34,152 bases of DNA from Lachnospiraceae bacterium (lineage in GTDB: Bacteria > Bacillota > Clostridia > Lachnospirales > Lachnospiraceae), in the NCBI GenBank assembly GCA_016286035.1, contig JAEERY010000022.1, forward strand, positions 1-34,152. The letters run 5' to 3'. This document shows, one piece after another, positions 1,856 to 19,219 of this stretch (its first letter is position 1; each line of letters opens with the position of its first letter). The position numbers and the translations under genes are program-made. The notes under the pieces were generated by a model. That model saw nothing but the letters and a program-made list of their open reading frames with translations. It did not search any database and was not told the DNA's origin.

Positions 1856-1865
1856 TAACTGCCCT
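1846..1865 (+). terminator. Hairpin over the macro-gene stop codon
   Basis: A 7-bp perfect stem (AGGGCAG/CTGCCCT) with the loop TGATAA, which contains the macro gene's TGA stop. It is followed by CATTTATT, so a terminator role is possible but the T tract is weak. It lies 8 bases upstream of the conserved motif at 1874-1893, and a similar hairpin precedes the second copy of that motif. It may therefore be part of a regulatory element rather than a plain terminator. Confidence 0.5.
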
Positions 1866-1873
1866 CATTTATT

Positions 1874-1893
1874 GTCTCCCGTTAGGCGACCAT
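1874..1893 (+). promoter_or_regulatory. Conserved intergenic motif, copy 1 (upstream of nadR-pnuC)
   Basis: GTCTCCCGTTAGGCGACCAT matches copy 2 at 3201-3220 at 17 of 20 positions. It can fold as GTC/GAC outer pairs, a small internal loop, CC/GG inner pairs and a GNNA tetraloop (GTTA). It lies 47 bases before the nadR start. It could be an RNA element or a DNA operator; a weak -10-like TATAAC sits at 1912-1917. I do not recognise it as a known riboswitch class. Confidence 0.5.
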
Positions 1894-1940
1894 CCATAAA
1901 CTGATAAGTATTATAACTGTATCAGGCAGGAGGAAAAGAA

Positions 1941-3163: not shown

Positions 3164-3167
3164 GCTA

Positions 3168-3195
3168 AAGGCAGGGATACAAAAGTCCCTGCCTT
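3168..3195 (+). terminator. Strong hairpin after pnuC
   Basis: A perfect 10-bp stem, AAGGCAGGGA with TCCCTGCCTT, closes an 8-base loop five bases after the pnuC stop. The following sequence is AAATAGTCC with no T tract, so it is not a textbook intrinsic terminator. It lies five bases upstream of motif copy 2, paralleling the layout upstream of nadR, and may be half of a two-stem regulatory structure. Confidence 0.5.
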
Positions 3196-3200
3196 AAATA

Positions 3201-3220
3201 GTCCCCCGACAGGCGACCAT
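3201..3220 (+). promoter_or_regulatory. Conserved intergenic motif, copy 2 (upstream of ADP-ribosylglycohydrolase)
   Basis: GTCCCCCGACAGGCGACCAT repeats the motif of 1874-1893. All differences fall in the predicted internal loop and tetraloop positions (GACA here, GTTA in copy 1), while the putative paired bases GTC/GAC and CC/GG are unchanged. It lies directly upstream of a plausible promoter at 3222-3250, so it could act as a DNA site next to the -35, or as RNA if transcription reads through from pnuC. Confidence 0.5.
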
Positions 3221-3221
3221 A

Positions 3222-3250
3222 ATGACAGTCTTTAGATGTAAGCTTATATC
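3222..3250 (+). promoter_or_regulatory. Possible promoter for the ADP-ribosylglycohydrolase gene
   Basis: ATGACA at 3222-3227 resembles a -35 box and is separated by 17 bases from TATATC at 3245-3250 as a -10. The spacing is ideal but both boxes are imperfect. The gene's ATG lies 26 bases beyond the -10. Confidence 0.35.
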
Positions 3251-3275
3251 ATAAAAAGAAAAGGAGGACTGAAAT

Positions 3276-4085
3276 ATGTACGGAGCGATATTAGGAGATA
3301 TAGTTGGAAGCAGATTTGAGTTTGACAGAGGAGACTTATCAAAGGATTTTGAATTCATAACAAAGAACGATCATTGGACAGATGATACCGTTATGACCAT
3401 TGCTGTTGCGGAGGCGTTACTTGAAGCAGGTAAGGATGCGACAGTAGAGGAAATCGAAGCAGCTTGTACTAGATTTATGCAGAAGTGGGGAAGAAAATAC
3501 CCTAATGCAGGTTATGGATCAAGATTCATTTACTGGTTAAGTGCAAAAGATCCGAAGCCTTACGGAAGCTATGGGAACGGATCAGCAATGAGAGTTTCTG
3601 CGGCAGGATGGCTATATGATTCACTTGAGAGAACAAGAGAGGTGGCGAGAGCTACGGCAAATGTGTCACACAATCATCCTGAAGGGATAAAGGGAGCGGA
3701 ATGTACGGCATCGGTCATATATTTGGCTCGAAATGGATCTTCGTTAAAAGAGATAGAAGACTATGTCATACAAGAATTTGGCTATGATCTATCAGAAACA
3801 CTGGATCAGATGAGAGCAAGACACAGACATGATGAGAGCAGTATGGACACATTACCAAAAGCATTAAAGAGCTTTCTTGAAGGTGAATCTTTTGAAGACG
3901 TGGTAAGAAATGCAATATCTCTTGGAGGAGATACAGATACAATAGCAGCAATAGCAGGAGCTATGGCAGATGCATTCTTTGGAATACCAGAAGAGTATAA
4001 GAAGGTAAGTAGAAAAAGCCTGGATATAGAAATGATGGAAGTCATAGGTAAATTCGATGATAAGCTTGATGGAATTATAATATAA
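3276..4085 (+). CDS. ADP-ribosylglycohydrolase (DraG/ARH family)
   Basis: This 269-residue soluble enzyme belongs to the family that removes ADP-ribose from proteins or other acceptors using two metal ions. Diagnostic motifs appear in order: GAILGDIVGSRFE at the N-terminus, WTDDTVMT (TDDT at residues 35-38, metal ligands), GNGSAMRVS, SHNHPEGIKGA, and SLGGDTDTIAAIAGA near residues 214-228 (GDTDT, metal ligands). All expected acidic metal ligands are present, so it should be active. AAGGAGG at 3261-3267 lies eight bases before the ATG. It shares an upstream motif with the nadR-pnuC operon and lies about 1.4 kb downstream of a macro-domain gene, which suggests one ADP-ribose/NAD regulon. The physiological target is unknown. 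Confidence 0.93.
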   Translation: MYGAILGDIVGSRFEFDRGDLSKDFEFITKNDHWTDDTVMTIAVAEALLEAGKDATVEEIEAACTRFMQKWGRKYPNAGYGSRFIYWLSAKDPKPYGSYGNGSAMRVSAAGWLYDSLERTREVARATANVSHNHPEGIKGAECTASVIYLARNGSSLKEIEDYVIQEFGYDLSETLDQMRARHRHDESSMDTLPKALKSFLEGESFEDVVRNAISLGGDTDTIAAIAGAMADAFFGIPEEYKKVSRKSLDIEMMEVIGKFDDKLDGIII

Positions 4086-4203: not shown

Positions 4204-6591
4204 TTGTTTGATAAGCAGATTTTTAATGATGTCTTAGTGAATTATAAGAAAGATTTTGTCCCTTCTGAATGGGAAAAAGAAGACTACAAATGGATAGCGA
4301 TTAAGTGTTTTCAGGATAATTGGGATATTAATGCTGATGATTTTGCAGGTATGCTGACTAAATCTTTATCCAAGACGGAAAACCTTCTTGTTTCTATGAG
4401 TAATTTTCCAGAAAGGATGATAAGGGAATTCGCTGAAAGGTTTCCGGAAGAAGTCCGCTCTATGTTTATTCATCTTTTTGATGAGACAAGAGATGTATTT
4501 GAACGTATGGATGAGTTTAAGACTCAATCGTCTATCATGTTAGATAAACTTGATACAGGTGCTAAACAGCATTATCAGCAAGAAAATGCAATAAGTACTT
4601 ACCTGTGGCTTAAATATCCGGATAAGTATTATATTTATAAATTCAGTGAAGTAAAAGCGGTTGCAACAGTACTAAAAAGTAATTATATATTCAAAAAAGG
4701 ATCTTATGCCGAAAACATCAAGAATTTCTATAAGTTCTATGATGAGATTTGCGAAGAATTAAAGAAAGATAATGAACTGATTAACCTATTAAAAAGCCAG
4801 CTTAATGACTCGTACTATCCAGATGATGAACTGAAAACACTTACAGTAGATGTGGGATTCTATATCAGTAGGTACTACAAAAAGGGAAATAATGGCGAGT
4901 GGTGGCCAGCATTAGAAGATTATTCACCGGGCTTTACGAAAGAACAGTGGGTGGAATTATTAAACAACCCAGAGATTATTGGACCTATATGGGGGAATTC
5001 ACTAGCAGAATACTTTGATATAGGTGGAGAGGCAACGTGTAGTCAAATAGGGGAAAAGTATAATCGAAATCCTTCATCTGTAAGCGGAAATCTAACGAAT
5101 CTGGCTAAGTATATCTATAAGAAAACAAATTGTCCGTTATATGACAACGGCGATGGAAAAAACAGATACTGGCCTATTCTTTTTATTGGAAAGAATGCAG
5201 CAAGTTCAGATGTTGGTAACTGGATATGGAAGCTTAGACCTGAATTATTTGAGGCTTTGACTGAAGTTGACATCTTACGATACCTTAAACCTCAGACAGA
5301 AGAAGTAAGTACTGAAGAGAAAAGATATTGGTGGCTCAATGCCAATCCGAAGATATGGAGCTTTTCAGCATTAGCTGTTGGCGAGTCGATTGATTATTCG
5401 TTATATAACGATAATGGCAACAAGAGAAAGATCTTCCAGAATTTTCTTGATGCAAAACAAGGAGATATGGTCATTGGCTATGAATCCACTCCTGTAAAAA
5501 AGATTGTCGCGATATGTAAGATACAGGCAGAACAGGATGGCGATAGTCTGTATGTTGAAAAGGTAGAAGGATTATCATCGCCTATAGATTATCAAGTTCT
5601 AAAAGATTGTCCCGAGCTTGAGTATATGGAATACTTTGTTAATCCTCAAGGAAGCCTGTTTAAACTGACAGAGGCTGAATATGAATTCATCATGGAACTC
5701 ATTCGTGATGAGAATCCTATCAAAGATGAGACTGTAATTGAAAAATACACAAAGGAAGATTTCCTGAAACAGGTATATATGGATGAGAATAAATATAACA
5801 CTCTTGTTTCAGTCCTGAACAATAAGAAGAATATCATCCTGCAAGGAGCTCCGGGTGTAGGAAAGACTTTTACTGCCAAACGACTTGCTTATTCCATTAT
5901 GAATGAGAAAGATGATGATCGAATCGAGTTTGTTCAGTTTCATCAGAACTATTCTTACGAAGATTTTGTAATGGGATATAAACCTGAAGAAGAAGGTTTT
6001 AAGTTAAAGACAGGTGTATTCTATCAGTTTTGCCAGAAAGCAAGCAATCATCCTGAGAAGAGTTACTTTTTTATCATTGATGAGATAAATAGAGGTAATA
6101 TAAGCAGGATATTCGGTGAACTATTGATGTTGATCGAAAATGAGTATCGTGGAACAAAAGCCACACTGGCGTATAATAACCTTTCATTTACGGTACCTAA
6201 GAATCTGTACATTATCGGTATGATGAATACCGCTGATAGAAGTCTTGCTCTGATTGATTATGCACTTAGAAGAAGATTTGCCTTCTTTGAGATGGAACCC
6301 GGATTTGATTCAGATGGATTCATTGACTATCAAAAGGGACTTAACAGTGAGACATTTGATGAGCTTATTCTGAGAGTTAAAGAGTTAAATAATGAAATTA
6401 AAAGAGATAAGTCACTAGGAAGTGGATTCTGTATAGGACACAGTTACTTCTGTGGAAAGGAAGTCTGTACAGATGAGTGGCTTCACGAGGTTGTTGATTA
6501 TGATTTAATCCCGACACTTAAGGAATACTGGTTTGATGAACCTGAAAAGATAACTCGTTGGGAGAATATTCTTCAGGGAGTATTTCAATGA
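4204..6591 (+). CDS. mcrB: McrB-like AAA+ GTPase with EVE domain
   Basis: The 795-residue protein is the motor subunit of a modification-dependent McrBC-type restriction system. Residues 1-370 are a helical, unrecognised N-terminal region with an HTH-like stretch (TCSQIGEKYNRNPSSVSGNL, about 280-300). From ~373 the RYWWLNANPKIWSF start marks an EVE domain, a PUA-like pocket known to read modified bases in nucleic acids. The C-terminal AAA+ module has Walker A GAPGVGKT (~548-555), Walker B FFIIDEINRGNISRIFGE, and the McrB signature MNTADRS (~674), with RRRFAF after it. The start is TTG with AGGAGG at 4190-4195, eight bases upstream. The stop overlaps the McrC start as ATGA. Replacement of the E. 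coli DNA-binding domain by EVE suggests a different modified-base specificity; that is inference. Confidence 0.92.
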   Translation: MFDKQIFNDVLVNYKKDFVPSEWEKEDYKWIAIKCFQDNWDINADDFAGMLTKSLSKTENLLVSMSNFPERMIREFAERFPEEVRSMFIHLFDETRDVFERMDEFKTQSSIMLDKLDTGAKQHYQQENAISTYLWLKYPDKYYIYKFSEVKAVATVLKSNYIFKKGSYAENIKNFYKFYDEICEELKKDNELINLLKSQLNDSYYPDDELKTLTVDVGFYISRYYKKGNNGEWWPALEDYSPGFTKEQWVELLNNPEIIGPIWGNSLAEYFDIGGEATCSQIGEKYNRNPSSVSGNLTNLAKYIYKKTNCPLYDNGDGKNRYWPILFIGKNAASSDVGNWIWKLRPELFEALTEVDILRYLKPQTEEVSTEEKRYWWLNANPKIWSFSALAVGESIDYSLYNDNGNKRKIFQNFLDAKQGDMVIGYESTPVKKIVAICKIQAEQDGDSLYVEKVEGLSSPIDYQVLKDCPELEYMEYFVNPQGSLFKLTEAEYEFIMELIRDENPIKDETVIEKYTKEDFLKQVYMDENKYNTLVSVLNNKKNIILQGAPGVGKTFTAKRLAYSIMNEKDDDRIEFVQFHQNYSYEDFVMGYKPEEEGFKLKTGVFYQFCQKASNHPEKSYFFIIDEINRGNISRIFGELLMLIENEYRGTKATLAYNNLSFTVPKNLYIIGMMNTADRSLALIDYALRRRFAFFEMEPGFDSDGFIDYQKGLNSETFDELILRVKELNNEIKRDKSLGSGFCIGHSYFCGKEVCTDEWLHEVVDYDLIPTLKEYWFDEPEKITRWENILQGVFQ

Positions 6592-7658
6592 TAAAGGATA
6601 AGTCAATCTTTATTAAGAATATATACTATATGCTGTCTTATGCCTACACGCCTTTAAGCCAGGAAGGTTATGAGAGTGTTGAGAAGGAAGACTTTGAAAA
6701 CATACATAACCTTTTTGCTGCAATCCTCGCAAAAGGAATAAGCAGGCAATTAAAGCAAGGTATTTATCGCGAATACATAGACAGAATAGAAAGTCTGACT
6801 ACTCTTCGTGGAAAGATCGACATGTCAGGAACGATAAAGCATAGATTAGCCAGGCAAAAGGCAATATCATGCGAGTTTGACGAATTGTCCGAAAACAATC
6901 TGTTGAATCAGATCATAAAGACTACAGTTATGCTGTTACTGCGAAACAGAAATGTAAACGCTGAGCACAAGGCAGAATTGAAGAAAGAGATGCTGTTCTT
7001 CTCGAATATTGAGATTATAGATCCGACGATTATCAGATGGTCTGCTATAAGATTTCAAAGAAACAATAATACCTATCGTATGCTTATAGGTATCTGTCAG
7101 TTGATCATAGAAGGCATGCTCCTCACAACTGAAAGCGGAGAGTATAAGCTATCATCATTCATGAAGCCAGATCATATGAATAATCTCTATGAGAGATTTA
7201 TTCTTGAGTACTATCGCAAAGAATATAATGATATTTCTTCTAATGCTCTGCAGATCCCATGGGGAGTTGATGATGGATTTAAGGATTTACTCCCGGTTAT
7301 GCAAACAGATATAACCCTTATTAGAGGGAAAAAGACTCTTATCATTGACGCAAAATATTACACAAATACACTACAGCAACAGTATGATAAGTATTCAGTT
7401 CATTCTAATAATCTCTATCAGATATTTACATATGTAAAGAATAAAGAAGTAGAACTTGCTAATAAAGAACATGAAAAAGTAGCCGGAATGCTGTTATATG
7501 CAAAAACAGATGATGAAGTATATCCGCAACATAAGTACAAGATGAGTGGAAATGATATCGAAGTCAGGACGCTTGATTTAAGTGTTGAGTTTTCACAGAT
7601 AAAAAAGCAGTTAGATGATATAGCAAACGTATATTTAGATGCAGAAAACAGAGCATGA
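6588..7658 (+). CDS. mcrC: McrC-like nuclease subunit of the McrBC system
   Basis: The 356-residue protein pairs with the upstream GTPase. The C-terminal half carries a PD-(D/E)xK nuclease core: TDITLIRGKKTLIIDAKYY, with the D of TDI and the D-x-K of IIDAK as metal-binding and catalytic residues. The N-terminal half (IKNIYYMLSYAY onwards) is the conserved McrC region that contacts the McrB ring. I chose the ATG at 6588 because it overlaps the mcrB TGA (ATGA), the usual sign of translational coupling; an in-frame ATG at 6558 would give ten extra residues inside mcrB. Both subunits appear intact, so the pair should form a functional modification-dependent restriction enzyme. Confidence 0.9.
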   Translation: MIKDKSIFIKNIYYMLSYAYTPLSQEGYESVEKEDFENIHNLFAAILAKGISRQLKQGIYREYIDRIESLTTLRGKIDMSGTIKHRLARQKAISCEFDELSENNLLNQIIKTTVMLLLRNRNVNAEHKAELKKEMLFFSNIEIIDPTIIRWSAIRFQRNNNTYRMLIGICQLIIEGMLLTTESGEYKLSSFMKPDHMNNLYERFILEYYRKEYNDISSNALQIPWGVDDGFKDLLPVMQTDITLIRGKKTLIIDAKYYTNTLQQQYDKYSVHSNNLYQIFTYVKNKEVELANKEHEKVAGMLLYAKTDDEVYPQHKYKMSGNDIEVRTLDLSVEFSQIKKQLDDIANVYLDAENRA

Positions 7659-7777: not shown

Positions 7778-10738
7778 ATGCTTGAAGATATAAAGAAAGG
7801 TTTTGAGACTGCATATATTGATGGATCAGTTATTTCTAACGAATTATTAAGACCGCAGTTTATATCTAACAATCATAAAGAAGGTAAAAAGGTTATCTCA
7901 TCCATAGAGGATGAGCTTTTGGCGTGCGATGAATTTATGATAAGTGTTGCCTTTATCACCTTAGGTGGTATTACACCTTTATTGCAGACTCTAAAAGAAT
8001 TAGAAAACAAAAAGATACCGGGGAAAATCTTAACGACTAATTATTTGAATTTCAGTGAGCCTTCAGCACTTGAGAAACTAAACGAATTATCCAACATTAC
8101 TCTAAAGATGTACGATTCTGAAGAATCAGGAGCGGGATTTCATACAAAAGGATATATATTTAAAAAAGAAGAGGTTTATAGAATTATTATTGGTAGCTCC
8201 AACATGACAAGTGGGGCATTAAAGAGCAATTATGAGTGGAATACTAAACTTATATCTACTTCTCATGGAGAGATATCAAAACAGATTTTAAATGAATTTG
8301 AAGATCTTTGGAATTCGAATTATGCTAAACCATATGATGTTTTTATAGCTGAATATAGAGAACACTATGAAATTGTTAAAAAGCAGCGAGAAATAGCAAA
8401 ACAAGAGCAGATAGTATCATTAGATAAATATCGTTTACAGCCCAATAGCATGCAAGTTGGCTTTGTTTCAAATTTAAAAGATATTATAACGGCAGGAAAA
8501 AATAGAGCTTTACTTATCTCCGCAACTGGTACAGGAAAAACATTTGCATCTGCATTTGCAATGAGAGAATTAGGATTTAAGCGAGTTTTATTTCTAGTTC
8601 ATAGAGGACAGTTGGCCAGACAAACAAAGATAGCTTACGAAAAGGTATTTGGGAAAACAGTATCGATGGGGCTGGTTGGCGCTGGTAATAAAGAATATGA
8701 TGCAGACTATATATTTGCTACGGTGCAGACTTTAAATCGTGATGAGCATTTGCTTAAGTATTCGGATGATGCTTTTGATGCTATTTGCTTAGATGAGGCA
8801 CATCATGTTCCTGCTGATACATACCAGAAGATAATGAAACACTTCAAGCCTAAGCTTTGGCTTGGAATGACAGCGACGCCTGATAAGCGTGATGATAACA
8901 TAGAAGGGCGTAATGTTTACGAGCTCTTTGATTATCAAATTGCTTATGAGATCAGACTGCAGCAAGCTATGGAGGAGAACTTGCTATGTCCTTTTCATTA
9001 CTTTGGAATTACTGATCTGGCTATCATAGGAGATGATAAGAATCGTGATTTTAATGTATTAACTTGTGACGAGAGAGTAAAGCATATTGTAGAACAAGCA
9101 CATTATTACGGATATAGTGGTGATCGTGTTAAGGGGCTGGTCTTTTGTAGCAGTATTGATGAATCCGAAGTATTATCAGACAAGTTAAATCACACTATTA
9201 ATCCAGCAACTGGAAAGCATTACAGAACAATAGCGCTAAATGGAAGTGCTTCTGAGACAGAACGACAAGATGCTTTTGAGAGATTAGCAGCTGATGAGGA
9301 TTCAGATGATATAGATGTATTGGACTATATACTATCAGTTGAGATCCTTAATGAGGGTGTTGATATAGTTGAGGTGAATCAAGTAATAATGCTTCGCCCA
9401 ACTCAGTCTCCGATTGTATTTATTCAACAGTTGGGAAGAGGTTTAAGGAAAGCACATGATAAAGAGTTTGTTGTTATACTTGATTTTATCGGGAATTACA
9501 ATAATAACTTTATGATTCCCATCGCACTTTCGGGTGACAGAACATATAATAAGGATAATATAAGAAGATTTGTTCTTGAGGGTGGAAAAATAATACCAGG
9601 TGTTTCTACAGTTCATTTCGATGAAATAAGTAGAAAGAGGATTTTTTCGGCTGTTGATAATGCAAATTTCAGCGATATTAAACTGATTAGAGAGAATTAT
9701 ACAAATCTGAAAAATAAACTCGGAAGGATACCAGCGCTAAAAGACTTTGACACTTATGGTGAGATGGATGTATTACGGATATTTGATAATGATAGATTGG
9801 GTTCGTATTACAAGTTTTTAGTGAAGTATGAAAAGGATTATATTATTCGTCTTTCAGATGATCAGGAAGAAATAGTAGAATTTGTATCCAAGAAATTGGC
9901 TAATGGTAAAAGAATTCATGAATTGTTATTACTGAAGCAAATTATTGCATATTCTCGTGGCATTTCAAAGGTGGGATTGTTTAAGGAACTATCAAATGAA
10001 TTAAAAACATATGATAAATCTCTCAATTCAAATCAGAGGGATAATATTATTAATGTTATGACAAATGAATTCTCAGCCGGATCTAGTAAAAATACTTATA
10101 AACAGTGTGTTTTTCTAGATCAAGAAGAAACCGATTATAAACCTTCTGATTCTTTTATGAATATGTTAAATGATAATGATTTTTCTGAGATAATGAAGGA
10201 ACTCGTAGAGTTCGGTATAAGTAGATATCAGAGAGATTATAATAAAGGGTATAATGGATCAGATTTAGTACTTTATCAGAAGTATACATATGAAGATGTA
10301 TGCAGATTATTGAATTGGGAACACAATGAAGTGCCATTAAATATTGGTGGTTATAAGTTTGATAAGAAAACTCGTACATTCCCTGTATTCATTAATTATG
10401 AAAAATCTGAAGACATAAGTGATACAACAAAATATGAGGATCACTTTGTGAATAACCGTATAATGATTGCCATCTCTAAATCTGGACGAAGTCTTAATTC
10501 TGAAGATGTTCAAAATTTTCTAAATGCAAAAGAAAGAGGCATTAGTGTAGAGTTATTTGTGCGTAAAAACAAAGATGATAAAGCTTCTAAGGAGTTTTAT
10601 TATTTGGGCCCCATGAAGGCAAGTGGAAGAACAGAGGAATTCACTATGCCAAACACAAATAAGACTGCTGTAAAAATCGAATGGATATTGGATGAAGCTG
10701 TTCGAGAAGATATATATGACTATATCGTAAGAGAATAA
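7778..10738 (+). CDS. PLD-nuclease / SF2 helicase / DUF3427 protein
   Basis: The 986-residue protein has three parts. Residues ~20-190 form a phospholipase-D-like nuclease domain with one HKD-type motif (FHTKGYIF near 120, then GSSNMTSG near 140), so the active site would need a dimer. Residues ~220-600 are a superfamily 2 helicase: SATGTGKTF (Walker A, ~247), LDEAHHVPADTY (DEAH, ~338), GMTATP, and QQLGRGLRK (motif VI). The C-terminal ~350 residues match the DUF3427 pattern, ending in a YLGPM...IEWILDEAVRED segment. The ATG at 7778 has a GAGAGG site 13 bases upstream, longer than usual. It starts a co-directional group with a NUDIX gene 19 bp downstream. DNA or RNA unwinding plus cleavage in phage defence is inferred from the domains. 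Confidence 0.88.
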   Translation: MLEDIKKGFETAYIDGSVISNELLRPQFISNNHKEGKKVISSIEDELLACDEFMISVAFITLGGITPLLQTLKELENKKIPGKILTTNYLNFSEPSALEKLNELSNITLKMYDSEESGAGFHTKGYIFKKEEVYRIIIGSSNMTSGALKSNYEWNTKLISTSHGEISKQILNEFEDLWNSNYAKPYDVFIAEYREHYEIVKKQREIAKQEQIVSLDKYRLQPNSMQVGFVSNLKDIITAGKNRALLISATGTGKTFASAFAMRELGFKRVLFLVHRGQLARQTKIAYEKVFGKTVSMGLVGAGNKEYDADYIFATVQTLNRDEHLLKYSDDAFDAICLDEAHHVPADTYQKIMKHFKPKLWLGMTATPDKRDDNIEGRNVYELFDYQIAYEIRLQQAMEENLLCPFHYFGITDLAIIGDDKNRDFNVLTCDERVKHIVEQAHYYGYSGDRVKGLVFCSSIDESEVLSDKLNHTINPATGKHYRTIALNGSASETERQDAFERLAADEDSDDIDVLDYILSVEILNEGVDIVEVNQVIMLRPTQSPIVFIQQLGRGLRKAHDKEFVVILDFIGNYNNNFMIPIALSGDRTYNKDNIRRFVLEGGKIIPGVSTVHFDEISRKRIFSAVDNANFSDIKLIRENYTNLKNKLGRIPALKDFDTYGEMDVLRIFDNDRLGSYYKFLVKYEKDYIIRLSDDQEEIVEFVSKKLANGKRIHELLLLKQIIAYSRGISKVGLFKELSNELKTYDKSLNSNQRDNIINVMTNEFSAGSSKNTYKQCVFLDQEETDYKPSDSFMNMLNDNDFSEIMKELVEFGISRYQRDYNKGYNGSDLVLYQKYTYEDVCRLLNWEHNEVPLNIGGYKFDKKTRTFPVFINYEKSEDISDTTKYEDHFVNNRIMIAISKSGRSLNSEDVQNFLNAKERGISVELFVRKNKDDKASKEFYYLGPMKASGRTEEFTMPNTNKTAVKIEWILDEAVREDIYDYIVRE

Positions 10739-10757
10739 TAAGGAGAATTTAGTTGTC

Positions 10758-11156
10758 ATGAAATGTATAAGAGTAGTTGCGGCTGTTATCAAGAAAAAGA
10801 AGGGTAAAGAAGAAAAGATATTCGCAACAGCAAGAGGATATGGAGAATTCAAGGGACAGTGGGAGTTTCCAGGAGGTAAAATAGAAAAAGGAGAAACTCC
10901 TCAGGAGGCTCTTGTACGTGAGATTAAAGAAGAGCTTACTGCCACTATAAAAGTGGGAAATTTGATAAAAACTGTAGAATATGATTATCCTACATTTCAT
11001 TTATCAATGGATTGCTTCTGGGCTGAAATAGTAAGTGGAGAACTGGTACTGAAAGAAGCAGAAGCAGCGAGGTGGTTATCAAAAGAAGATATTGATTCTG
11101 TGAATTGGCTTCCTGCAGATCAGGAGTTGGTGGATCTCATTAAGAGTGTTTGGTAA
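10758..11156 (+). CDS. MutT-like NUDIX (deoxy)nucleoside triphosphate pyrophosphohydrolase
   Basis: The 132-residue protein is the size of a minimal NUDIX enzyme. The NUDIX box starts at G40 with E46 and continues REIKEEL at 54-60, holding the glutamates that bind catalytic magnesium. The final Gly of the classical box is Thr, a change I believe occurs in many MutT relatives. The GQWEFPGGKIEKGE segment is typical of 8-oxo-dGTP-type hydrolases. Its ribosome site AAGGAG (10740-10745) lies just after the helicase stop, so the genes are tightly linked. House-cleaning MutT function is possible, but its position between two nuclease-helicases suggests a dedicated role, perhaps on nucleotides altered during phage infection. 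That role is inference. Confidence 0.9.
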   Translation: MKCIRVVAAVIKKKKGKEEKIFATARGYGEFKGQWEFPGGKIEKGETPQEALVREIKEELTATIKVGNLIKTVEYDYPTFHLSMDCFWAEIVSGELVLKEAEAARWLSKEDIDSVNWLPADQELVDLIKSVW

Positions 11157-11184
11157 TAACGACATAACATTATCGAGGATATAA

Positions 11185-13047
11185 ATGATAGTTTATAACG
11201 CAACAAAAGCCCAATTTAATGACGATGTTAATCTGAATCAGATCTCGGATATTATTCTTAATAACTTAAGAGAAAGAAACCTTACGGGTGGTGGAGTCAG
11301 TGAGTATCATTCATGGCAGAATTCACTTCATTTCATGAGATCAGCAATAGATGATCCTGAGATACCAGATGATGTTGAGGTAGCTATCGAGTATCAGATA
11401 CCAAGAACATCCAAACGTGTTGATTTTATGCTGGCAGGTGCTGATAAAGACGGTAAGGACAATGTCATCGTAGTAGAGCTAAAACAATGGGATAAAGCCG
11501 AGAAGGTTGATGATATAATGCAGCATAGTGTGCGTGCCTTTACTGGTGGAGGAAAAAGAATTGTAAATCATCCGTCATATCAGGCATTTGCTTATGCAAC
11601 CTTCATAAGAAATTCATCAGAACAGGTTCAGGATGCTGATATAGGAATAAAGCCTTGTGCATATCTTCATAACTGTGATCCCAAATCAAGAGAACCCCTG
11701 GATGATGACATATATAAAACCTGGCTTGAAGAGGCACCTCTTTTTGACAAGAGCCAGACACTGCGTCTTAGAAGCTTTATAAAACAGTATGTTACAAAGC
11801 GTTCAGCTTCGGGAAATCTGCTATATAAGATAGATAACGGTCGTATACGTCCATCAAAAGCACTGCAGGATTGCCTTGTTTCACTCATGAAAGGAAATGA
11901 GGAATTCATGCTTCTTGATGATCAGGCAGTGGTCTTTGATATGTGTAAGAAGATCATGGATCAGTGCCTCAAAGACATGAAGAAAAGAAGCATCATAATA
12001 CAGGGAGGCCCGGGAACAGGCAAGTCTGTACTTGCTGTGAATCTTTTGAATGAGTTTATAAAAAAGGGACTTAATGCAAGTTATTGTACAAAGAACAGTG
12101 CTCCGAGAGAAGCGTATCAGAAACTGCTTTCAAAATCCGATCTTAAAGCGCAGGTTAATATCAAACAGCTTTTCAGATCTCCTTTTGGACTGAGCGATGC
12201 ATCGCCTAATTTCTATGACTGTCTGATAGTTGATGAAGCACACAGACTTGTAAAGAAGATGTACGGAGACTGGAACGGAGTCAATCAGGTAAAGGAGTGT
12301 ATAAATGCTTCTTTAGTTACTGTGTTTCTTATAGATGAAGACCAGCAGATCACGACCAAGGATATAGGTTCTATACAGGAGATAAGGAAGTGGGCAGGAG
12401 ATCTTAACAGCGGTATCACCATGAATGAGGATACTGTTCTTAAGTCGCAGTTCAGATGCAACGGAAGTGATCAGTATATCCAGCTGATCAATAACATCCT
12501 GCAGATAGGAGAATCGGTCGATACTGATGTTAAAGAACTGAACTATGACTTAAGAGTATATGATGACCCGAATGAACTCAGAGATGCACTGCGAGAGATA
12601 AACCAGATAAACAATAAGGCAAGGATGGTTGCCGGATACTGTTATGACTGGAATGTAAAGAATAAAAGAGATGATTATGATATATATTTAGAGAATGATT
12701 TCAAAGCCCAGTGGAATCTGGCAACAGATAAGATATGGGCTATTAATCCAAAATCATTTGAACAGGTCGGATGTATCCATACAGCTCAGGGCCTTGAATT
12801 CGATTATATCGGAGTCTTTGTTGGCAAAGATTTGATATATGATAATGAGAGAGGGCTAGTCATTACAGATCGTACTCAGATATCTGGAGATGATAAATCA
12901 TCAGGCATAAGAACCGCTGATGCTGAAACCGCAGAAAGACTGATAAAGAACACATATAAGACATTGCTTACACGAGGCCAGAAGGGCTGCTTTATATATT
13001 GCGAGGATAAAGCACTGGCTTCATACATAAGATCATTTATAGAATAG
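11185..13047 (+). CDS. PD-(D/E)xK nuclease fused to DUF2075 (Schlafen-type) helicase
   Basis: The 620-residue protein begins with a restriction-type nuclease domain: D80 in RVDFMLAG and E98-x-K100 in NVIVVELKQW form a PD-(D/E)xK triad. A P-loop NTPase of the DUF2075 family follows, with IIIQGGPGTGKS (Walker A, ~271-281), CLIVDEAHRL (Walker B), FLIDEDQQI (motif III-like), LKSQFRCNGSDQ (motif IV-like), and HTAQGLEFDYIGV plus TRGQKGCFIY at the C-terminus, typical of superfamily 1-like helicases. A GAGG site lies six bases before the ATG, and the upstream NUDIX gene ends 28 bp away. It would cut and translocate on nucleic acid. A MazG-like gene follows after 15 bp, supporting a single operon. Confidence 0.88.
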   Translation: MIVYNATKAQFNDDVNLNQISDIILNNLRERNLTGGGVSEYHSWQNSLHFMRSAIDDPEIPDDVEVAIEYQIPRTSKRVDFMLAGADKDGKDNVIVVELKQWDKAEKVDDIMQHSVRAFTGGGKRIVNHPSYQAFAYATFIRNSSEQVQDADIGIKPCAYLHNCDPKSREPLDDDIYKTWLEEAPLFDKSQTLRLRSFIKQYVTKRSASGNLLYKIDNGRIRPSKALQDCLVSLMKGNEEFMLLDDQAVVFDMCKKIMDQCLKDMKKRSIIIQGGPGTGKSVLAVNLLNEFIKKGLNASYCTKNSAPREAYQKLLSKSDLKAQVNIKQLFRSPFGLSDASPNFYDCLIVDEAHRLVKKMYGDWNGVNQVKECINASLVTVFLIDEDQQITTKDIGSIQEIRKWAGDLNSGITMNEDTVLKSQFRCNGSDQYIQLINNILQIGESVDTDVKELNYDLRVYDDPNELRDALREINQINNKARMVAGYCYDWNVKNKRDDYDIYLENDFKAQWNLATDKIWAINPKSFEQVGCIHTAQGLEFDYIGVFVGKDLIYDNERGLVITDRTQISGDDKSSGIRTADAETAERLIKNTYKTLLTRGQKGCFIYCEDKALASYIRSFIE

Positions 13048-13062
13048 ATGCGGAGAGGAAAC

Positions 13063-13383
13063 ATGAAACAGGAAACAATAGACAGAATAAGAAAATTCAG
13101 TGAGGACAGAGACTGGGATCAGTTCCATTCTCCAGCCAACCTGGCAAAGTCTATTTCCATTGAAGCGGGTGAATTACTTGAATGCTTCCAGTGGAGTGAT
13201 ACTGATTATGATATAGAGCATGTTAAGGAAGAACTGGCGGATGTAATAGTCTATTGCAGGGATATGCTGGATAAGCTTGGACTTGATGAGGATGAGATCG
13301 TTAATGCAAAGATGGACCAGAATGAAGCCAAGTATCCTGTGGATAGAGCAAAAGGAAAAGCTGACAAATATGACAGACTTTAG
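13063..13383 (+). CDS. MazG-like nucleotide pyrophosphohydrolase
   Basis: This 106-residue all-alpha enzyme carries the MazG metal-binding pattern: EAGE (34-37) and EELAD (56-60), which give the ExxE...ExxD arrangement. Such enzymes hydrolyse nucleoside triphosphates to monophosphates; small relatives act on dCTP, dUTP or alarmone-like substrates. I chose the ATG at 13063 over 13048 because GAGAGGA sits at the right distance before it. The DUF2075 gene ends 15 bp upstream and the HNH gene starts 57 bp downstream. A second, unrelated pyrophosphohydrolase in the same operon as the NUDIX enzyme is unusual and suggests that nucleotide pool control is part of the system. Confidence 0.88.
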   Translation: MKQETIDRIRKFSEDRDWDQFHSPANLAKSISIEAGELLECFQWSDTDYDIEHVKEELADVIVYCRDMLDKLGLDEDEIVNAKMDQNEAKYPVDRAKGKADKYDRL

Positions 13384-13440
13384 AAGCTGTTGAATAAATT
13401 CAGATTGATGTAAAGATATAAGCAATTGAGGTATTAAGAA

Positions 13441-14622
13441 TTGTCCGAACTTAAAACAAATGTGGGATACAGTTTAAGTATCGATGGAAAATATTATAAC
13501 ATGCTGGACATAGAGGGTTTTTCTCATATGATGAAAGATCCTTCTTTTTGCTATAAGTTTTACTGGCTTGAAGCCATAGTGCAACTTATATCTGAAAATG
13601 TTAAGGAAACTACTTTTGATGCGGTTATCAACGAAATGATATGCAACGCATGGTATTCCGTCAGGGAGTTTCATATCCATTTAAGCGGTTTGATAGTGGA
13701 TGCCAACGGAGAGCCCAGAGACGGCTTGGAAAGAGCTGTAAACATACTGACTCAGGTCAGTGATCTGGCTCCAAATGCATCTAAGGTGGAGATAAGAAAT
13801 GCTATCAAAGAGCATGATGCTGAACTGAAAACTGCTAAAGAACAGCTTACCAACATGGTGCCTTATCGTGCACTGGCAGGATTCTTCAAAAACCATGATC
13901 TGACAGTTAACTGGGATTCCATTACAAGATTAACGGCTTATATCGAAGAGATAAACCGTGATATTGTATTGCTGCCTTATACATTGGGACCGTCATCCAA
14001 ATTAAAGAAAGAGATATACTTTCAGGAAGACTGGATTAAGATGATACAGGATAATACTGTATCTATACTGGGATGGATACAGTTTGAAAAGGTAAAATGG
14101 CTGCAGAATAACAATCCTGAAGTTCCGGGGCTTGTATATAAACTGGCACCCATGGATGAAAAGATGCGTAAGCTTAACAATGTCAGAAAACTCTGGGAGG
14201 GAATACTTGAATTGACCGAAGTCAGAGATGTGTTTACGGATAAGGCGTTGACTTCGAAAAAGTATGATGTTGATCATTTTATACCATGGTCTTTTGTTAT
14301 GAATGACGAACTATGGAATCTTATGCCGATGGATTCTTCCCTCAATTCATCAAAGAGTAATTATCTACCAAAATGGGATCCTTTTTTTGAGAGATTCGCA
14401 CAAAATCAGTTCATGATGTATGAGTTGATCCATGCTAAAGAGGGAATTCACAAATTGTTTGAGTCCTGCTATAGAGATAATATTCATTCCATTTGGGCAG
14501 TCCAAGAGCTGTATCGTAAAGGAAACAATAAAGAAGTATTTTGTGGGATTCTGTGTAAAAACATGGAACCTGTCTATGATTCTGCCAGAAGACAGGGGTA
14601 TGAAATCTGGAGCCATATATAG
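13441..14622 (+). CDS. HNH endonuclease-domain protein
   Basis: The 393-residue protein is mostly helical, with an HNH nuclease motif near the C-terminus: YDVDHFIPWSF (residues ~275-285, catalytic D-H pair) followed by ELWNLMPMDSSLNSSKS, which supplies the Asn and the third His-equivalent region. This variant is similar in style to HNH domains in Cas9-like and restriction proteins. The N-terminal ~270 residues are not recognised. The start is TTG with GAGG at 13428-13431, nine bases upstream; the next in-frame ATG is 20 codons later. It is the last gene of the five-gene array starting at 7778 and is probably co-transcribed, though the 57-bp gap leaves room for separate control. Confidence 0.82.
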   Translation: MSELKTNVGYSLSIDGKYYNMLDIEGFSHMMKDPSFCYKFYWLEAIVQLISENVKETTFDAVINEMICNAWYSVREFHIHLSGLIVDANGEPRDGLERAVNILTQVSDLAPNASKVEIRNAIKEHDAELKTAKEQLTNMVPYRALAGFFKNHDLTVNWDSITRLTAYIEEINRDIVLLPYTLGPSSKLKKEIYFQEDWIKMIQDNTVSILGWIQFEKVKWLQNNNPEVPGLVYKLAPMDEKMRKLNNVRKLWEGILELTEVRDVFTDKALTSKKYDVDHFIPWSFVMNDELWNLMPMDSSLNSSKSNYLPKWDPFFERFAQNQFMMYELIHAKEGIHKLFESCYRDNIHSIWAVQELYRKGNNKEVFCGILCKNMEPVYDSARRQGYEIWSHI

Positions 14623-14676: not shown

Positions 14677-14747
14677 TATATAGTCAGGATAGAGACAGAA
14701 ATCATTTGCTGACAAATGTATGGGATAGTATTGGACAGGAGTATATC

Positions 14748-15347
14748 GTGAAGAAGAAATCATCCAGTTATATTTTGACATCAACAGAAAAAAAGCATAT
14801 CAAACAGAATAAGATAATAAAGATTATTACTACGCTGGTAATAATAAGCGTAATATTCAATATCATATTCTTGGCAGATATAAGAATTCCAGTTATCAAT
14901 CCAAATGGAAGCTTTCATGGTATTCAGGGAGTAAAGATAGAGGTTTCAAATAAGAAACATCCATCTATTATCAAGCTTTTTTTCAAGGACAATACAAAGT
15001 ATGACAGCTTTACGTCAATTACCTTGGATACAAGGAATGGAATCTATTATCTTGAAAAAAAGAGTGATATATGCAGACTCTATGGCGTAGAGGGATTTGA
15101 TTTTGAATACTGTGATTTTGAATTAGCCAAGTGGGAAGAAGCAAAAAATATAGTTCTGAAATATCAGCTTGAAGAGTATGATCCAAACAGGCATGTTGAT
15201 AAGGAAGGACGTATTCAGAATTACGATGTTGATTACGAGTTTTCATTGTGGCTAAACGGTTCAGATATGCAAATGGAAATACCTGAAAACGTTGAAGAGA
15301 TTGAAGAATACATGATCGAACTGACCAATCTGGCCAGAACTAAATAG
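14748..15347 (+). CDS. Single-pass membrane-anchored protein, paralogue A
   Basis: The 199-residue protein has a short basic N-terminus containing LTSTEKKHIKQNK, then one hydrophobic segment (about residues 22-42, IIKIITTLVIISVIFNIIFL), then a soluble acidic region probably outside the cell. I place the start at GTG 14748 because ACAGGAG lies six bases upstream and because this makes the N-terminus align with the next gene (LT-x-x-EK...QxNK, then the membrane segment). A TTG start at 14706 would be longer but lacks a ribosome site. No enzyme motif is visible and the family is not recognised. The soluble part shares features with the downstream protein (YDPNRH/YNPEDY, then an acidic ENVEEIEEY or ENWDSIIEY end), so the pair arose by duplication. 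Confidence 0.75.
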   Translation: MKKKSSSYILTSTEKKHIKQNKIIKIITTLVIISVIFNIIFLADIRIPVINPNGSFHGIQGVKIEVSNKKHPSIIKLFFKDNTKYDSFTSITLDTRNGIYYLEKKSDICRLYGVEGFDFEYCDFELAKWEEAKNIVLKYQLEEYDPNRHVDKEGRIQNYDVDYEFSLWLNGSDMQMEIPENVEEIEEYMIELTNLARTK

Positions 15348-15362
15348 GTGAGGGGTATATAT

Positions 15363-16001
15363 ATGAAAAAGAGTAAAGGGCTTCTGACGCCTGCAGAAAA
15401 ACAGGTTGCCCAGAGAAATAAAAAAATACTTATACTATGCGTAGTATTAGTACTCAGCCTGGTGATAAATGTAATTTATATCTTTGATTTTAAGATATCT
15501 ATCCCTAAGATTAGAGATGTTAAGGCTAATGAGAATGAAACAGTAACGAGGGACATTACTGTATCGGAAGAATCTGAAGTTGCTCAGTCAAATACATCAA
15601 CAGCAAAAGACAGGGCTTTGGAAAAAGCTTTTAACGAGGCTAAGATAATCACTCTTAAAGAGGGAAGTGTTTTCCGTATAGATGTATACTCGAAAAACAA
15701 AAGATATAACGTGGAACTGCAGTCGGATGCGGTATATTTCAGTACATATGGTCTCGACTCGGTTTCGTGCAGTTTCGTTAACGAAAAATTTGATGGGCTT
15801 TTAGATATACTTAATGAAGCTGAACTAAGAGAACTGACTATTAAATCTTATCCTAACGAGGATGGAAAGCTTATAGATTATAATCCGGAAGACTATCTCA
15901 TGATCTATTCCGATAGCGGATTCTATAAAGTATATCCGCCTGAAAATTGGGATTCGATCATTGAATACTGTGAGGAGCTTGAGAGAATAGCAGCCGAATA
16001 A
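15363..16001 (+). CDS. Single-pass membrane-anchored protein, paralogue B
   Basis: The 212-residue protein is a diverged copy of the gene upstream: a short basic start with LTPAEKQVAQRNKK, one hydrophobic segment (about 20-42), a Ser/Thr/Glu-rich linker (~58-85), and a soluble domain that includes VYFSTYGLDSVSCSF and an acidic C-terminus. I chose the ATG at 15363 because GTGAGGGG precedes it; an in-frame GTG at 15348 follows the previous stop directly. The 15-bp gap indicates co-transcription with paralogue A. A strong terminator at 16066 ends the unit. The function is unknown; the layout suits a cell-surface sensor or an immunity-type protein, but nothing decides this. Confidence 0.75.
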   Translation: MKKSKGLLTPAEKQVAQRNKKILILCVVLVLSLVINVIYIFDFKISIPKIRDVKANENETVTRDITVSEESEVAQSNTSTAKDRALEKAFNEAKIITLKEGSVFRIDVYSKNKRYNVELQSDAVYFSTYGLDSVSCSFVNEKFDGLLDILNEAELRELTIKSYPNEDGKLIDYNPEDYLMIYSDSGFYKVYPPENWDSIIEYCEELERIAAE

Positions 16002-16065: not shown

Positions 16066-16095
16066 AGAGCCACTTCAAAGTGGCTCTAATTTTTT
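16066..16095. terminator. Bidirectional intrinsic terminator
   Basis: Arms AGAGCCACTT and AAGTGGCTCT pair perfectly and are followed by AATTTTTT on the + strand. On the - strand the hairpin is followed by a T-rich run (CTTTTGTTGGTTGTTTT). It lies between the convergent ends of the 15363 gene (+) and the 16349 gene (-), so it can serve both. Confidence 0.9.
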
Positions 16096-17423: not shown

Positions 17424-17551
17424 GATTTGATGAAATATTTACCTGATAGCAAGAGACGTACAAATAGTATTTGTTACGCATGCTTTAGTAAAATATATTA
17501 ATAGCTTTGATAGGTACCAGGCAAGAACATAGATTGACAGAAAGGAAGAAG

Positions 17552-18889
17552 ATGGCAGGTATGAAGCTGAGAAAGACCAGTGCTGCATACAAATACCTTT
17601 TGGTCATACCGATAGTAATGATCATCGATCTAGGCATATTTATGCTTGTATCGAGATTTCTTGGCAAAACAGCAACGATCATCATCTCTGTCGTACTTGG
17701 TCTTTTATCACTAGCCGTCATAGTCTTCTTTGTTCTGGTAGTTATAGTAAAGCTTAGGAATATAAAAGCATATAATGAAAAAGTAAAAAAAGCCATGAAA
17801 GCACAGCAGGCTCAGAAGAAGGCTGAACCTGAAAAGAAAGAACAACCAAAAGAGAAGCCTCAACTTAAGGAGGAAGAGCTTAAAGAGAAGCCTCAGCTAA
17901 AGGCAGAAGAGCCTGTGAAGAATGAACAGCCTAAAGAAGAAAAGACTGTCGAGAAGGCTAAACCAAAGGAAGAACTGGTAGAAGAGAAAGAACCACCTAA
18001 GACAGAAAAGCCTATAGAACACAAAGAGGATAAAAAGCCAAATCTATCTCTTGATGATACACAACCTTTGATAATGCCTGAGATTGATGAATCATTACCT
18101 GAGATAAACTTTGAACCTGTAAAGGTAGCACAGGATGGTAAAGATATAGATAAACTTAAAGATGAGCATGGAAGAGTGAGGACTTCATTTAAGAATGAGA
18201 ATCTTTCAAACATGGACTTCTCAAATGTGGATGCAGCAAACAGTGACTTCTCAGGTGCTGACTTAAGTGGAAGTAACTTCTCCGGAGCAGATCTTAAAAA
18301 GACAAACTTAAGTGGAGCTGACCTTACCGGAGCATGTTTTGAAGGTGCTGATCTTACAAGTGCAAAACTGTCAAAAGCAAATCTTACGGACAGTGTATTT
18401 GACAATGCATGCCTTAACAAAGCAAGAGTTGATAACCTCAAAGCCGCAGGATCAAGCTTTAAACATGCAGATGTATCAAACATGAGCTTTTATAAAGCAG
18501 TACTTAAGAATGCTGACTTCTCAAACAGCAACGGTTATAACAGTGATTTCTCTTTTGCAGATCTTGAAGGAGCTAAGATAAGTTCAGCAAAGATGACCAA
18601 GATGAAGTTCGAGAATGTTAATCTCTCAAGTTCAGATCTTACAGAGACAGAGTTTAATGACTGTAACTTCTGGTGGGCAATACTTAATGGCGCAGATATG
18701 CAAGGCTGTACACTTGAGAACATAGATCTCAGTAACGCAGATCTTACCGATGCCAATGTTACAAATTCTCACCTTAGCGGCCTTGAATTATTCGAAGTAA
18801 CAGCAACAGGAGCAGACTTCAGAGGAAGTGAAATGAGTTCAGCAGACCAGTTCAAACTCTTTGAAAAGGGTGCGAACGTATTTGAATAA
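17552..18889 (+). CDS. Membrane-anchored pentapeptide-repeat protein with Pro/Glu/Lys linker
   Basis: The 445-residue protein has three parts. Two hydrophobic segments lie near the N-terminus (YLLVIPIVMIIDLGIFMLV and TIIISVVLGLLSLAVIVFFV). A highly charged repetitive linker follows (residues ~75-165) with recurring EKPQLK, EEPVK and PKEE units. A pentapeptide-repeat region (~205-440) has the A(D/N)Lxx pattern (SNMDFSNVDAANSDFSG, GADLTGACFEGADL), which folds as a right-handed quadrilateral beta-helix. The ATG at 17552 is chosen because AAAGGAAG precedes it; a TTG at 17507 would add 15 residues without a ribosome site. The linker would hold the beta-helix away from the membrane. Partner and function are unknown; the next gene also ends in pentapeptide repeats. 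Confidence 0.85.
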   Translation: MAGMKLRKTSAAYKYLLVIPIVMIIDLGIFMLVSRFLGKTATIIISVVLGLLSLAVIVFFVLVVIVKLRNIKAYNEKVKKAMKAQQAQKKAEPEKKEQPKEKPQLKEEELKEKPQLKAEEPVKNEQPKEEKTVEKAKPKEELVEEKEPPKTEKPIEHKEDKKPNLSLDDTQPLIMPEIDESLPEINFEPVKVAQDGKDIDKLKDEHGRVRTSFKNENLSNMDFSNVDAANSDFSGADLSGSNFSGADLKKTNLSGADLTGACFEGADLTSAKLSKANLTDSVFDNACLNKARVDNLKAAGSSFKHADVSNMSFYKAVLKNADFSNSNGYNSDFSFADLEGAKISSAKMTKMKFENVNLSSSDLTETEFNDCNFWWAILNGADMQGCTLENIDLSNADLTDANVTNSHLSGLELFEVTATGADFRGSEMSSADQFKLFEKGANVFE

Positions 18890-18928
18890 TCATAAGGATA
18901 CATTTGAATAAACGTATATAACAACGAA

Positions 18929-18953
18929 AAAGGCCGCTCACAACGCGGCCTTT
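18929..18953. terminator. GC-rich hairpin terminator after the pentapeptide-repeat gene
   Basis: Arms AAAGGCCGC (18929-18937) and GCGGCCTTT (18945-18953) pair perfectly around a 7-base loop. The A run before and T run after the GC core support intrinsic termination, although the T tract is short. It separates this gene from the NACHT gene. Confidence 0.75.
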
Positions 18954-19219
18954 AGTCGTACGGAGTATTAAAACTCGCATCTTGCAATGGAAATTGAAAG
19001 AAAAACGCTCTTGTTTTATCCACGAATATATACTAACAGGATAAGTGTAACAGTTGTGTATAATACTTATGAAATATATATTGTGACTGGTTTACAAACA
19101 CACCTGAATCATTTTAAAATCATATAGAAGAGGAATGATTAGACTAAGAGTGTTAAAAGAACTATAAACGTTTTATCGAGATTATCAGTATAAAAGATTT
19201 AGTATAGTTAGGGGGAAGT
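18954..19219 (+). other. Leader region of the NACHT gene
   Basis: No gene is seen in these 266 bases. A TATAAT box lies at 19059-19064 without a convincing -35, which would give a transcript leader of roughly 150 bases. AGGGGG at 19210-19215 is the ribosome site of the next gene. The stretch is very AT-rich and shows no strong hairpin. Confidence 0.4.

Follow-up and report, generated by a model that had tools for sequence, protein, structure and literature searches.

Why would a bacterium line up three nucleases and two unrelated nucleotide pyrophosphohydrolases in a single run of genes? The question is raised by a contig of a Lachnospiraceae bacterium of the class Clostridia (JAEERY010000022.1, assembly GCA_016286035.1), of which positions 1 to 34,152 were analyzed; this whole 34,152-nucleotide stretch is called the window. 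At 7778-14622 an original prediction, made from the sequence alone, had described a five-gene array that consists of a PLD nuclease/SF2 helicase/DUF3427 protein (gene 1), a NUDIX enzyme (gene 2), a PD-(D/E)XK nuclease joined to a DUF2075 helicase (gene 3), a MazG-like enzyme (gene 4), and an HNH protein (gene 5). The array is real, intact-looking, and tightly spaced. The coordinates of the open reading frames (ORFs) confirmed the five genes at their original positions, all on the plus strand, and the intergenic gaps, when re-measured, were again 19, 28, 15, and 57 bp. Pfam agreed with the domain calls, returning PLDc_2/ResIII/Helicase_C/DUF3427 for gene 1, followed by NUDIX, SLFN-g3_helicase (which we take to be DUF2075 renamed), MazG-like, and HNH_4. 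The reading proposed here is that the array belongs to a modular cluster that guards cytosine modification. In other words, modified DNA would be cut and modified deoxycytidine triphosphate (dCTP) would be cleared. This reading is put forward tentatively, at somewhat less than even confidence; its substrates and the protection against phage are the parts that we infer.

The restriction side of this reading starts from gene 1. The original prediction could assign no named defense system, and this did not hold: judged by its sequence, gene 1 is a SauUSI-type Type IV restriction enzyme. Enzymes of this kind cut DNA carrying 5-methylcytosine (5mC). The PADLOC model mREase_IV covers its residues 2-983 (E 1.8e-208), and PDB entry 7clg, the sole full-length solved relative, aligns with residues 2-984 (E 1.1e-201). 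The residue numbering of PMC7913695 identifies 7clg as SauUSI, in that M829, Y831, F841, I842, and W868 of that paper land on the same letters in 7clg. As in SauUSI, a PLD nuclease, an SF2 ATPase, a coupler, and a DUF3427/SRA domain are combined in a single chain, and a passage in PMC3874153 states that one SauUSI chain is enough for activity. Among 34 aligned family members, the residues of the PLD motif (HxK...GSSN; H122, K124, G139, and N142) are each kept in all 31 rows that extend over them, the Walker A lysine K254 in 30 of 31 (the remaining row reads X), and D339 of the DEAH motif in 33 of 33. The 5mC pocket of SauUSI was modeled as Y831, F841, I842, and W868 (PMC7913695), and three of these four residues are kept in the window (Y859, F871, and I872). 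Across the DUF3427 proteins of the window and of loci L003-L139, the modeled pocket varies by group, with W or A at W868 and Y, V, S, or M at Y831. Such a varying SRA pocket suggests different modification specificities. A second 5mC-dependent system, McrBC, stands beside the SauUSI-type gene: McrB and McrC genes on the same strand end 119 bp before it. The original limits of the array overlooked them and are too narrow.

The nucleotide side of the reading concerns genes 2 and 4. The NUDIX enzyme matches PADLOC candidate PDC-S07 (2e-47), and its Nudix-box residues E36, G39, G40, E43, R54, E55, E58, and E59 are kept in 25 of 25 family rows. Its best single PDB match is 3gwy, a putative CTP pyrophosphohydrolase. 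When the family profile was searched against PDB, the scores were 159 bits for 5x1x, 147 for 3gwy, 118 for E. coli NudG (2rrk), and 103 for E. coli MutT (1mut). Furthermore, D121 is invariant (25 of 25), and the aligned letter in E. coli MutT is N. The placement thus leans toward NudG over MutT, and even E. coli MutT is credited with a weak 5-methyl-dCTP activity in a passage of PMC3744803. MazG finds its relatives by profile and PDB search in dCTP pyrophosphatase 1 (DCTPP1) and RS21-C6 (E 2.4e-16). Its residues E39, E42, and E62, which presumably form the acidic metal site, are kept together with D65 in 26 of 26 rows. D65 corresponds to Asp98 of RS21-C6, and N92, kept in 23 of 26 rows, corresponds to Asn125, the residue that selects for deoxyribose; both are described in a passage of PMC2954211. 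MazG is, by these matches and residues, of the DCTPP1/RS21-C6 kind, and a preference for 5-methyl-dCTP is predicted. E. coli Orf135 (NudG), mouse RS21-C6, and human DCTPP1 are reported as 5-methyl-dCTP hydrolases in part of PMC10742078, and passages in PMC4491611 state that the level of DCTPP1 alters cellular 5-methyl-dCTP and DNA methylation. 5-modified dCTP is proposed as the substrate because both unrelated folds have 5-methyl-dCTP hydrolysis on record and adjoin two 5mC-dependent restriction systems. The original idea of nucleotide-pool sanitation or depletion was incomplete: a role in the pool is the best reading of NUDIX and MazG, and it can be sharpened to 5-modified dCTP as the probable target.

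Gene 3 carries a nuclease motif (D80, E98-L99-K100) in which D80, E98, and K100 are invariant in 41 of 41 rows, and its helicase residues K280, D350, and E351 are kept in the same number. The AlphaFold model is good (mean pLDDT 88.4), and the top Foldseek matches were SLFN11 and RecD-type helicases at query TM-scores of ~0.3. The N-terminal domain is assigned to the PD-(D/E)XK type by the invariant motif, not by a fold match of that domain alone, and the assignment is to that extent provisional. In two plasmid loci, L247 (5351-7093) and L251 (2744-4483), the SLFN-g3 helicases lack the PD-(D/E)XK-like motif and match GIY-YIG weakly instead, with MazG still adjoining. The nuclease part of these helicases therefore looks exchangeable, and the link between helicase and MazG looks retained. 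In the HNH protein, D278, H279, and N302 are kept in 7 of 7 rows. Its model is poor (mean pLDDT 69.2), and Foldseek gave no match at 0.001 or better; the idea that its N-terminus reads modified bases found no support there. The PADLOC search advised in the original prediction was fruitful in part, as gene 1 and NUDIX were matched, the helicase matched parts of models only, and no model matched MazG.

Do these genes belong together? The original expectation that they do so beyond chance is borne out by co-location far above random placement, by three further loci with all five families, and by L247. The families lie close to one another far beyond what random placement would give. Expected values assume random placement in genomes of 2.55 Mb, ignore islands, take start positions from the search listings, and count the window in; L044 and L050, contigs of one assembly by accession prefix, are not independent. 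PF11907 (DUF3427) was found at 32 places in 31 of 291 genomes of the class, and the NUDIX profile at 100 places in 92 of them. A NUDIX gene lies within 5 kb of DUF3427 at 20 of the 32 places (0.13 expected). Profile scanning of the 31 fetched DUF3427 stretches (L110-L140, without the window) placed NUDIX near 20 of them, one with a weak score (L126, 83 bits). The NUDIX gene is mostly co-directional and immediately downstream of the DUF3427 gene; exceptions are L117, L118, L126, and L127, where it is upstream, and L116, L121, and L123, where the strands are opposite. Seven plasmid records cover at least 80% of gene 1. NUDIX adjoins in five (L226, L227, L246, L247, and L229/L248), not in L256 and L257. 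The record L229/L248 is from S. aureus (NZ_CP077890); there the NUDIX gene stands immediately upstream of a SauUSI-like stretch that matches piecewise and is unannotated in the table supplied.

A second pair is formed by the helicase and MazG. At 79 helicase loci, MazG was adjacent and co-directional in 46 (37 upstream, 9 downstream) and lay farther upstream in 5. MazG is an accessory family, with 35 places in 34 of the 291 genomes, and it adjoins the helicase at 13 of the 17 places that score at least 144 bits (17 of 35 overall). Among the 7 of 13 plasmid helicase records that were opened, MazG was adjacent in L245, L247, and L251, and none was seen in L258-L261. The HNH profile was found at 16 places in 15 of 291 genomes, four of them within 5 kb of DUF3427 (0.03 expected), three near NUDIX, and two near MazG. 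SauUSI with NUDIX and the nuclease-SLFN-g3 helicase with MazG are two strongly conserved pairs, and HNH is a looser partner.

Is the set of five a single system, which the original prediction thought worth testing? Its families recur, but they do so as modules in differing orders. All five were found in 4 of 111 loci (79 helicase loci, 31 DUF3427 loci, and the window). With D for SauUSI type, N for NUDIX, S for helicase, M for MazG, H for HNH, and x for another gene, the orders are D-N-S-M-H in the window, H-D-N-x-x-M-S in L046, M-D-N-S-H in L063, and S-M-H-x-D-N in L115. The HNH of L063 is only a distant relative (~19% identity to that of the window). Four families without HNH occur in L003 (D-N-S-M), L048 (D-N-x-M-S), and L247 (N-D-M-S). 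The last is a Lactiplantibacillus plasmid, from another class (Bacilli), on which the four genes form a single operon with gaps of -14, 17, and 17 bp. As a tight group, SauUSI, NUDIX, helicase, and MazG recur in hosts that are unrelated, namely in L003, L046, L048, L063, L115, and L247. Helicase, MazG, and HNH follow one another in L239 and L115 as well, HNH-McrB-McrC occurs in L183, and in L245 the restriction gene is replaced (N-MrcB_N-M-S). One obligate five-gene system was rejected on this rarity, and the array is modular, with two conserved pairs plus a looser HNH. In L060 (7495-8868) one protein combines a PDC-S07 NUDIX and NOV_C/DUF3883 with a domain that also occurs in a McrA-like HNH enzyme, and its gene is followed by another HNH gene, MazG, and helicase. 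The N-terminal domain of this fusion is related to the N-terminal part of an HNH protein, one that matches McrA in its HNH part. It was also considered as an SRA domain; this was dropped, as no PDB match was found and the match to the DUF3427 C-terminus of the window was unconvincing (E 0.035).

Further indications come from the contexts in which the pyrophosphohydrolases are found away from the array. For NUDIX, these were 20 orphan stretches (the neighbors of 14 were sent to Pfam, and the majority showed no link to restriction) and 12 plasmid records out of 88. NUDIX occurs in operons of a C5 methylase with a MutH/Sau3AI-like gene in L141 and L220, which we take to be of the Sau3AI kind, near two C5 methylases and an Eco47II gene in L224, and next to a McrA-type HNH gene in L221. 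A Collinsella plasmid (L225, 4001-4990) encodes a NUDIX-Vsr fusion annotated as Vsr, a repair enzyme linked to C5 methylation. In L143 (7852-9576) an open frame joins a NUDIX of the same profile to a GH32 glycosidase, in a sugar context. Methylases were listed by PF00145 (C5-cytosine) and PF02384 (N6-adenine), and the co-location figures with them are lower bounds. For MazG, a C5 methylase is found within 5 kb at no fewer than 4 of 35 places (0.10 expected) and an N6-adenine methylase at 0 of 35 among the matches listed. The neighbors of MazG include an Eco47II system in L203 and an ASCH protein with a C5 methylase in L190. A partnership of MazG with Type I restriction in L205, L208, L212, and L202 was considered and rejected: the neighbors tested in L205 and L202 are glycosidase- or heparinase-like, and L208 and L212 were judged by similar gene lengths only. 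At the level of whole genomes, C5 methylases were found in 2 of 15 with a strong SauUSI type versus 119 of the 276 others, for which a single Fisher test, uncorrected, gave 0.029. The corresponding figures for N6 methylases are 12 of 15 versus 230 of 276. A PF00145 search gave no C5 methylase match in the window's own genome.

How would the parts work together? SauUSI-type and McrBC enzymes would cut DNA that bears 5mC or 5-hydroxymethylcytosine (hm5C). The sources of 5-modified dCMP and dCTP would be modified DNA that has been digested, a methylase resident in the cell, or a phage during infection. If 5-modified dCTP were built into host DNA, the chromosome itself would become a target of SauUSI and McrBC. 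Such bases would also make the methyl code of a C5 restriction-modification system ambiguous, or would serve as a supply for a phage. NUDIX and MazG would hydrolyze 5-modified dCTP to the monophosphate, which would spare new host DNA and take the modified precursor away from the phage. As further nucleases, HNH and the PD-(D/E)XK-SLFN-g3 helicase, whose most frequent partner is MazG, may help to degrade the invader. A broader proposal is that of immunity at two levels, in which a single mobile and modular type of operon has nucleases that police the polymer and two pyrophosphohydrolases of unrelated fold that were separately recruited to 5-modified dCTP; this is conceivable but doubtful.

Several observations weigh against the guarding of cytosine modification. 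The top profile match of NUDIX, 5x1x, and several others carry the MutT label, and 5x1x has D at position 121 too. A single-sequence PDB search ranked MutT (66.7 bits) above NudG (48.1), and NCBIfam likewise leans toward MutT, with 93.5 for the mutt model (cut-off 97.9) and 72 for the NudG model. Moreover, Orf135 and DCTPP1 accept CTP or dCTP as well, according to passages in PMC3744803 and PMC4491611. Relatives do not fix the substrate of NUDIX or MazG, and 5-modified dCTP is a candidate. The claim that all visible catalytic motifs are intact stood for NUDIX, MazG, gene 3, and HNH, but not entirely for gene 1, in which E126 of SauUSI, behind the PLD HxK, is K. In the pocket of the same protein W868 is replaced by A and M829 by G. 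Because these three residues are replaced, the exact modification that is read by the window's enzyme may differ from that of SauUSI; at the W868 place, 18 aligned rows of the stronger type have A in 9, W in 8, and S in 1.

The contexts are not uniform either. NUDIX lies near a C5 methylase at a minimum of 1 of 100 places plus L141, and near an N6 methylase also at 1 of 100 or more, so that no enrichment is seen. It is found beside an Eco57I-type gene (L231) or near DUF262 (including L261); these two loci are Lactobacillus amylolyticus plasmids with the same kind of NUDIX. It also occurs as a fusion with an N4/N6 methylase or with a glycosidase. On plasmids L245 and L251, the MazG-helicase pair has Type I N6 methylase genes in its vicinity, and for several NUDIX and MazG genes the stretch seen contains no restriction-like neighbor. 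NUDIX is absent near 11 of 31 DUF3427 loci, four of which (L135, L137, L138, and L140) are truncated by the end of a contig, and MazG was not found at 28 of 79 helicase loci, five of them near a contig end. Genomes with weaker DUF3427 matches show no depletion of C5 methylases (7 of 16). The original prediction had put its weight on whether the five families often co-occur and whether NUDIX and MazG lie mostly elsewhere. The outcome is mixed: the set of five is rare, MazG lies mostly in context at its best-scoring places, and many NUDIX members lie elsewhere, with DUF3427 no more than 5 kb away from 20 of 100 hits (10 among the 25 best).

Might the pyrophosphohydrolases be weapons against the phage pool? 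NUDIX and MazG would then chiefly destroy hydroxymethyl-dCTP (hmdCTP) or another modified deoxynucleoside triphosphate (dNTP), so that phage DNA is either plain and open to ordinary restriction or modified and exposed to SauUSI and McrBC. Such an attack shares the enzyme placements and gene links of the preferred reading. According to a passage in PMC3874153, hm5C enters at replication, with the dCTP pool first converted to hmdCTP, and the pocket changes of the window's SauUSI-type enzyme (W to A, M to G) could suit bulkier bases. The NUDIX genes in the operons of L141 and L220 and the Vsr fusion of L225 are left unexplained, since the host is expected to make 5mC there. Self-protection is favored over pool attack because it accounts for the C5-methylase contexts as well as the Type IV contexts, whereas pool attack fits the latter only, and pool attack is judged unlikely. 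A general, abortive depletion, in which both pyrophosphohydrolases drain dCTP/CTP or other NTPs on infection and the nucleases destroy DNA, would draw on the hydrolysis of dCTP and CTP by the NudG and DCTPP1 relatives, and nucleotide-depleting defense enzymes do exist. However, Pfam found no sensor or control domain on the window's NUDIX or MazG, and NUDIX sits within restriction-modification operons, where a steady drain of dNTPs would presumably be costly; depletion is quite improbable.

The remaining explanation is that the pairs are real and have come together in the window by chance, as separate genes packed into a defense island, with NUDIX and MazG performing ordinary mutation avoidance. 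Another defense-like gene farther on (PDC-S37/Hhe-like, 22190-26830), the presence of all five families in just 4 of 111 loci, and the chance that NUDIX is MutT-like speak for such hitch-hiking. It does not sit well with tight gaps across different orders, with L063, in which MazG and helicase flank the SauUSI-NUDIX pair, or with the single operon of L247. Clustering in islands alone also looks weak because DUF3427 is within 5 kb of a C5 or N6 methylase at 0 of 32 places among the matches listed. Hitch-hiking is thus regarded as rather unlikely. The guarding of cytosine modification is retained as the working explanation of the array, the coordinates of which are collected in the table.

Table. 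Restriction block of the window and its downstream hairpin
Feature	Position	Strand	Basis of assignment
McrB-like GTPase	4204..6591	+	Pfam AAA_5; EVE-like modified-base-binding domain (Pfam EVE 25.0 bits, cut-off 23); NCBIfam McrB partial
McrC	6558..7658	+	overlaps McrB; Pfam McrBC; NCBIfam McrC above cut-off
Gene 1, SauUSI-type Type IV restriction enzyme (by sequence)	7778..10738	+	PLD nuclease, SF2 ATPase, coupler, DUF3427/SRA target-recognition domain
Gene 2, NUDIX hydrolase, MutT/NudG group	10758..11156	+	PADLOC candidate PDC-S07; Pfam NUDIX
Gene 3, PD-(D/E)XK-like nuclease + SLFN-g3 (DUF2075) helicase	11185..13047	+	Pfam SLFN-g3_helicase
Gene 4, MazG-like all-alpha pyrophosphohydrolase near DCTPP1/RS21-C6	13063..13383	+	Pfam MazG-like; PDB E 2.4e-16
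Gene 5, HNH nuclease, HNH_4 type	13441..14622	+	Pfam HNH_4; N-terminal part mostly helical; looser partner
Best terminator-like hairpin	16066..16087	+	after ORFs 14706-16001

The start of the MazG gene was placed at the ATG behind GGAGAGG, the first ATG in the ORF list being at 13048, and that of the HNH gene at a TTG with GAGG upstream. The two co-directional ORFs that follow the HNH gene gave no match in Pfam. Nine terminator-like sites were found where shuffled sequences gave 5.3; a weaker plus-strand match than that in the table lies inside the HNH gene (14115-14130). On the near side of the restriction block, at 791-4085, genes for a Macro domain protein, a cytidylyltransferase-like protein, an NMN transporter (PnuC), and an ADP-ribosylglycohydrolase are consecutive and resemble an NAD/ADP-ribose set. 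On the far side lie two pentapeptide-repeat proteins (17507-22048), the first with a faint PD-T4-6 match, and the gene at 22190-26830, which encodes a 1546-aa DUF4011-helicase-MTES_1575 nuclease that matches PADLOC PDC-S37 at full length (E 0) and Hhe partially.

What would follow if the guarding of cytosine modification is correct? Type IV restriction is usually drawn as the work of a lone nuclease. If its partners clear modified nucleotides, sanitation would be part of restriction, and this would explain how a cell that kills modified DNA keeps the bases of digested phage DNA out of its own chromosome. A cell could then keep lethal nucleases that depend on 5mC or hm5C without cutting itself. 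Furthermore, the PDC-S07 NUDIX and the MazG/SLFN-g3 genes of defense islands would gain a function, and the physiological role of 5-methyl-dCTP hydrolases would become directly testable.

How does the locus compare with known systems? NudG (Orf135) of E. coli and DCTPP1 (RS21-C6) of human and mouse are the close characterized relatives of the window's NUDIX and MazG; they are free-standing housekeeping enzymes, unlike the window genes. PDC-S07 and mREase_IV, which NUDIX and gene 1 match one each, are single-gene PADLOC entries by name and not one system. Nhi, like gene 3, combines a nuclease and a helicase in one chain, and partial matches of gene 3 to Nhi and AbiO (6e-15 and 8e-16) are confined to residues 239-474. 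Against the whole Nhi model, the match covers residues 255-470 alone (188-371 of the 470 model positions), and the identification of gene 3 as Nhi was set aside for want of a full-model match. We know of no MazG partner for either Nhi or AbiO. DefensePredictor, in a passage of PMC13092281, lists MazG among predicted defense domains that are unvalidated. In open-access literature, which makes the absence a weak one, the four-gene set and its substrate logic were not described among the matches listed. SauUSI of S. aureus is like gene 1 in its PLD-SF2-coupler-SRA architecture over 984 residues, and in the S. aureus record NZ_CP077890 a SauUSI-like stretch likewise has a NUDIX neighbor. The window differs from SauUSI in the replaced W868, M829, and E126 and in the companions MazG, helicase, and HNH. 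Small proteins beside SauUSI homologs in Streptococcus were named as MutT homologs in 2020 (PMC7641849, Fig. 9 legend). That legend passage proposes no function for them, and the main text is without the terms MazG, Nudix, dCTP, DUF2075, and Schlafen. Thus, the adjacency of SauUSI and MutT was already known, and what appears to be new is the association of Type IV restriction with nucleotide-pool partners, together with a mechanism proposed for it.

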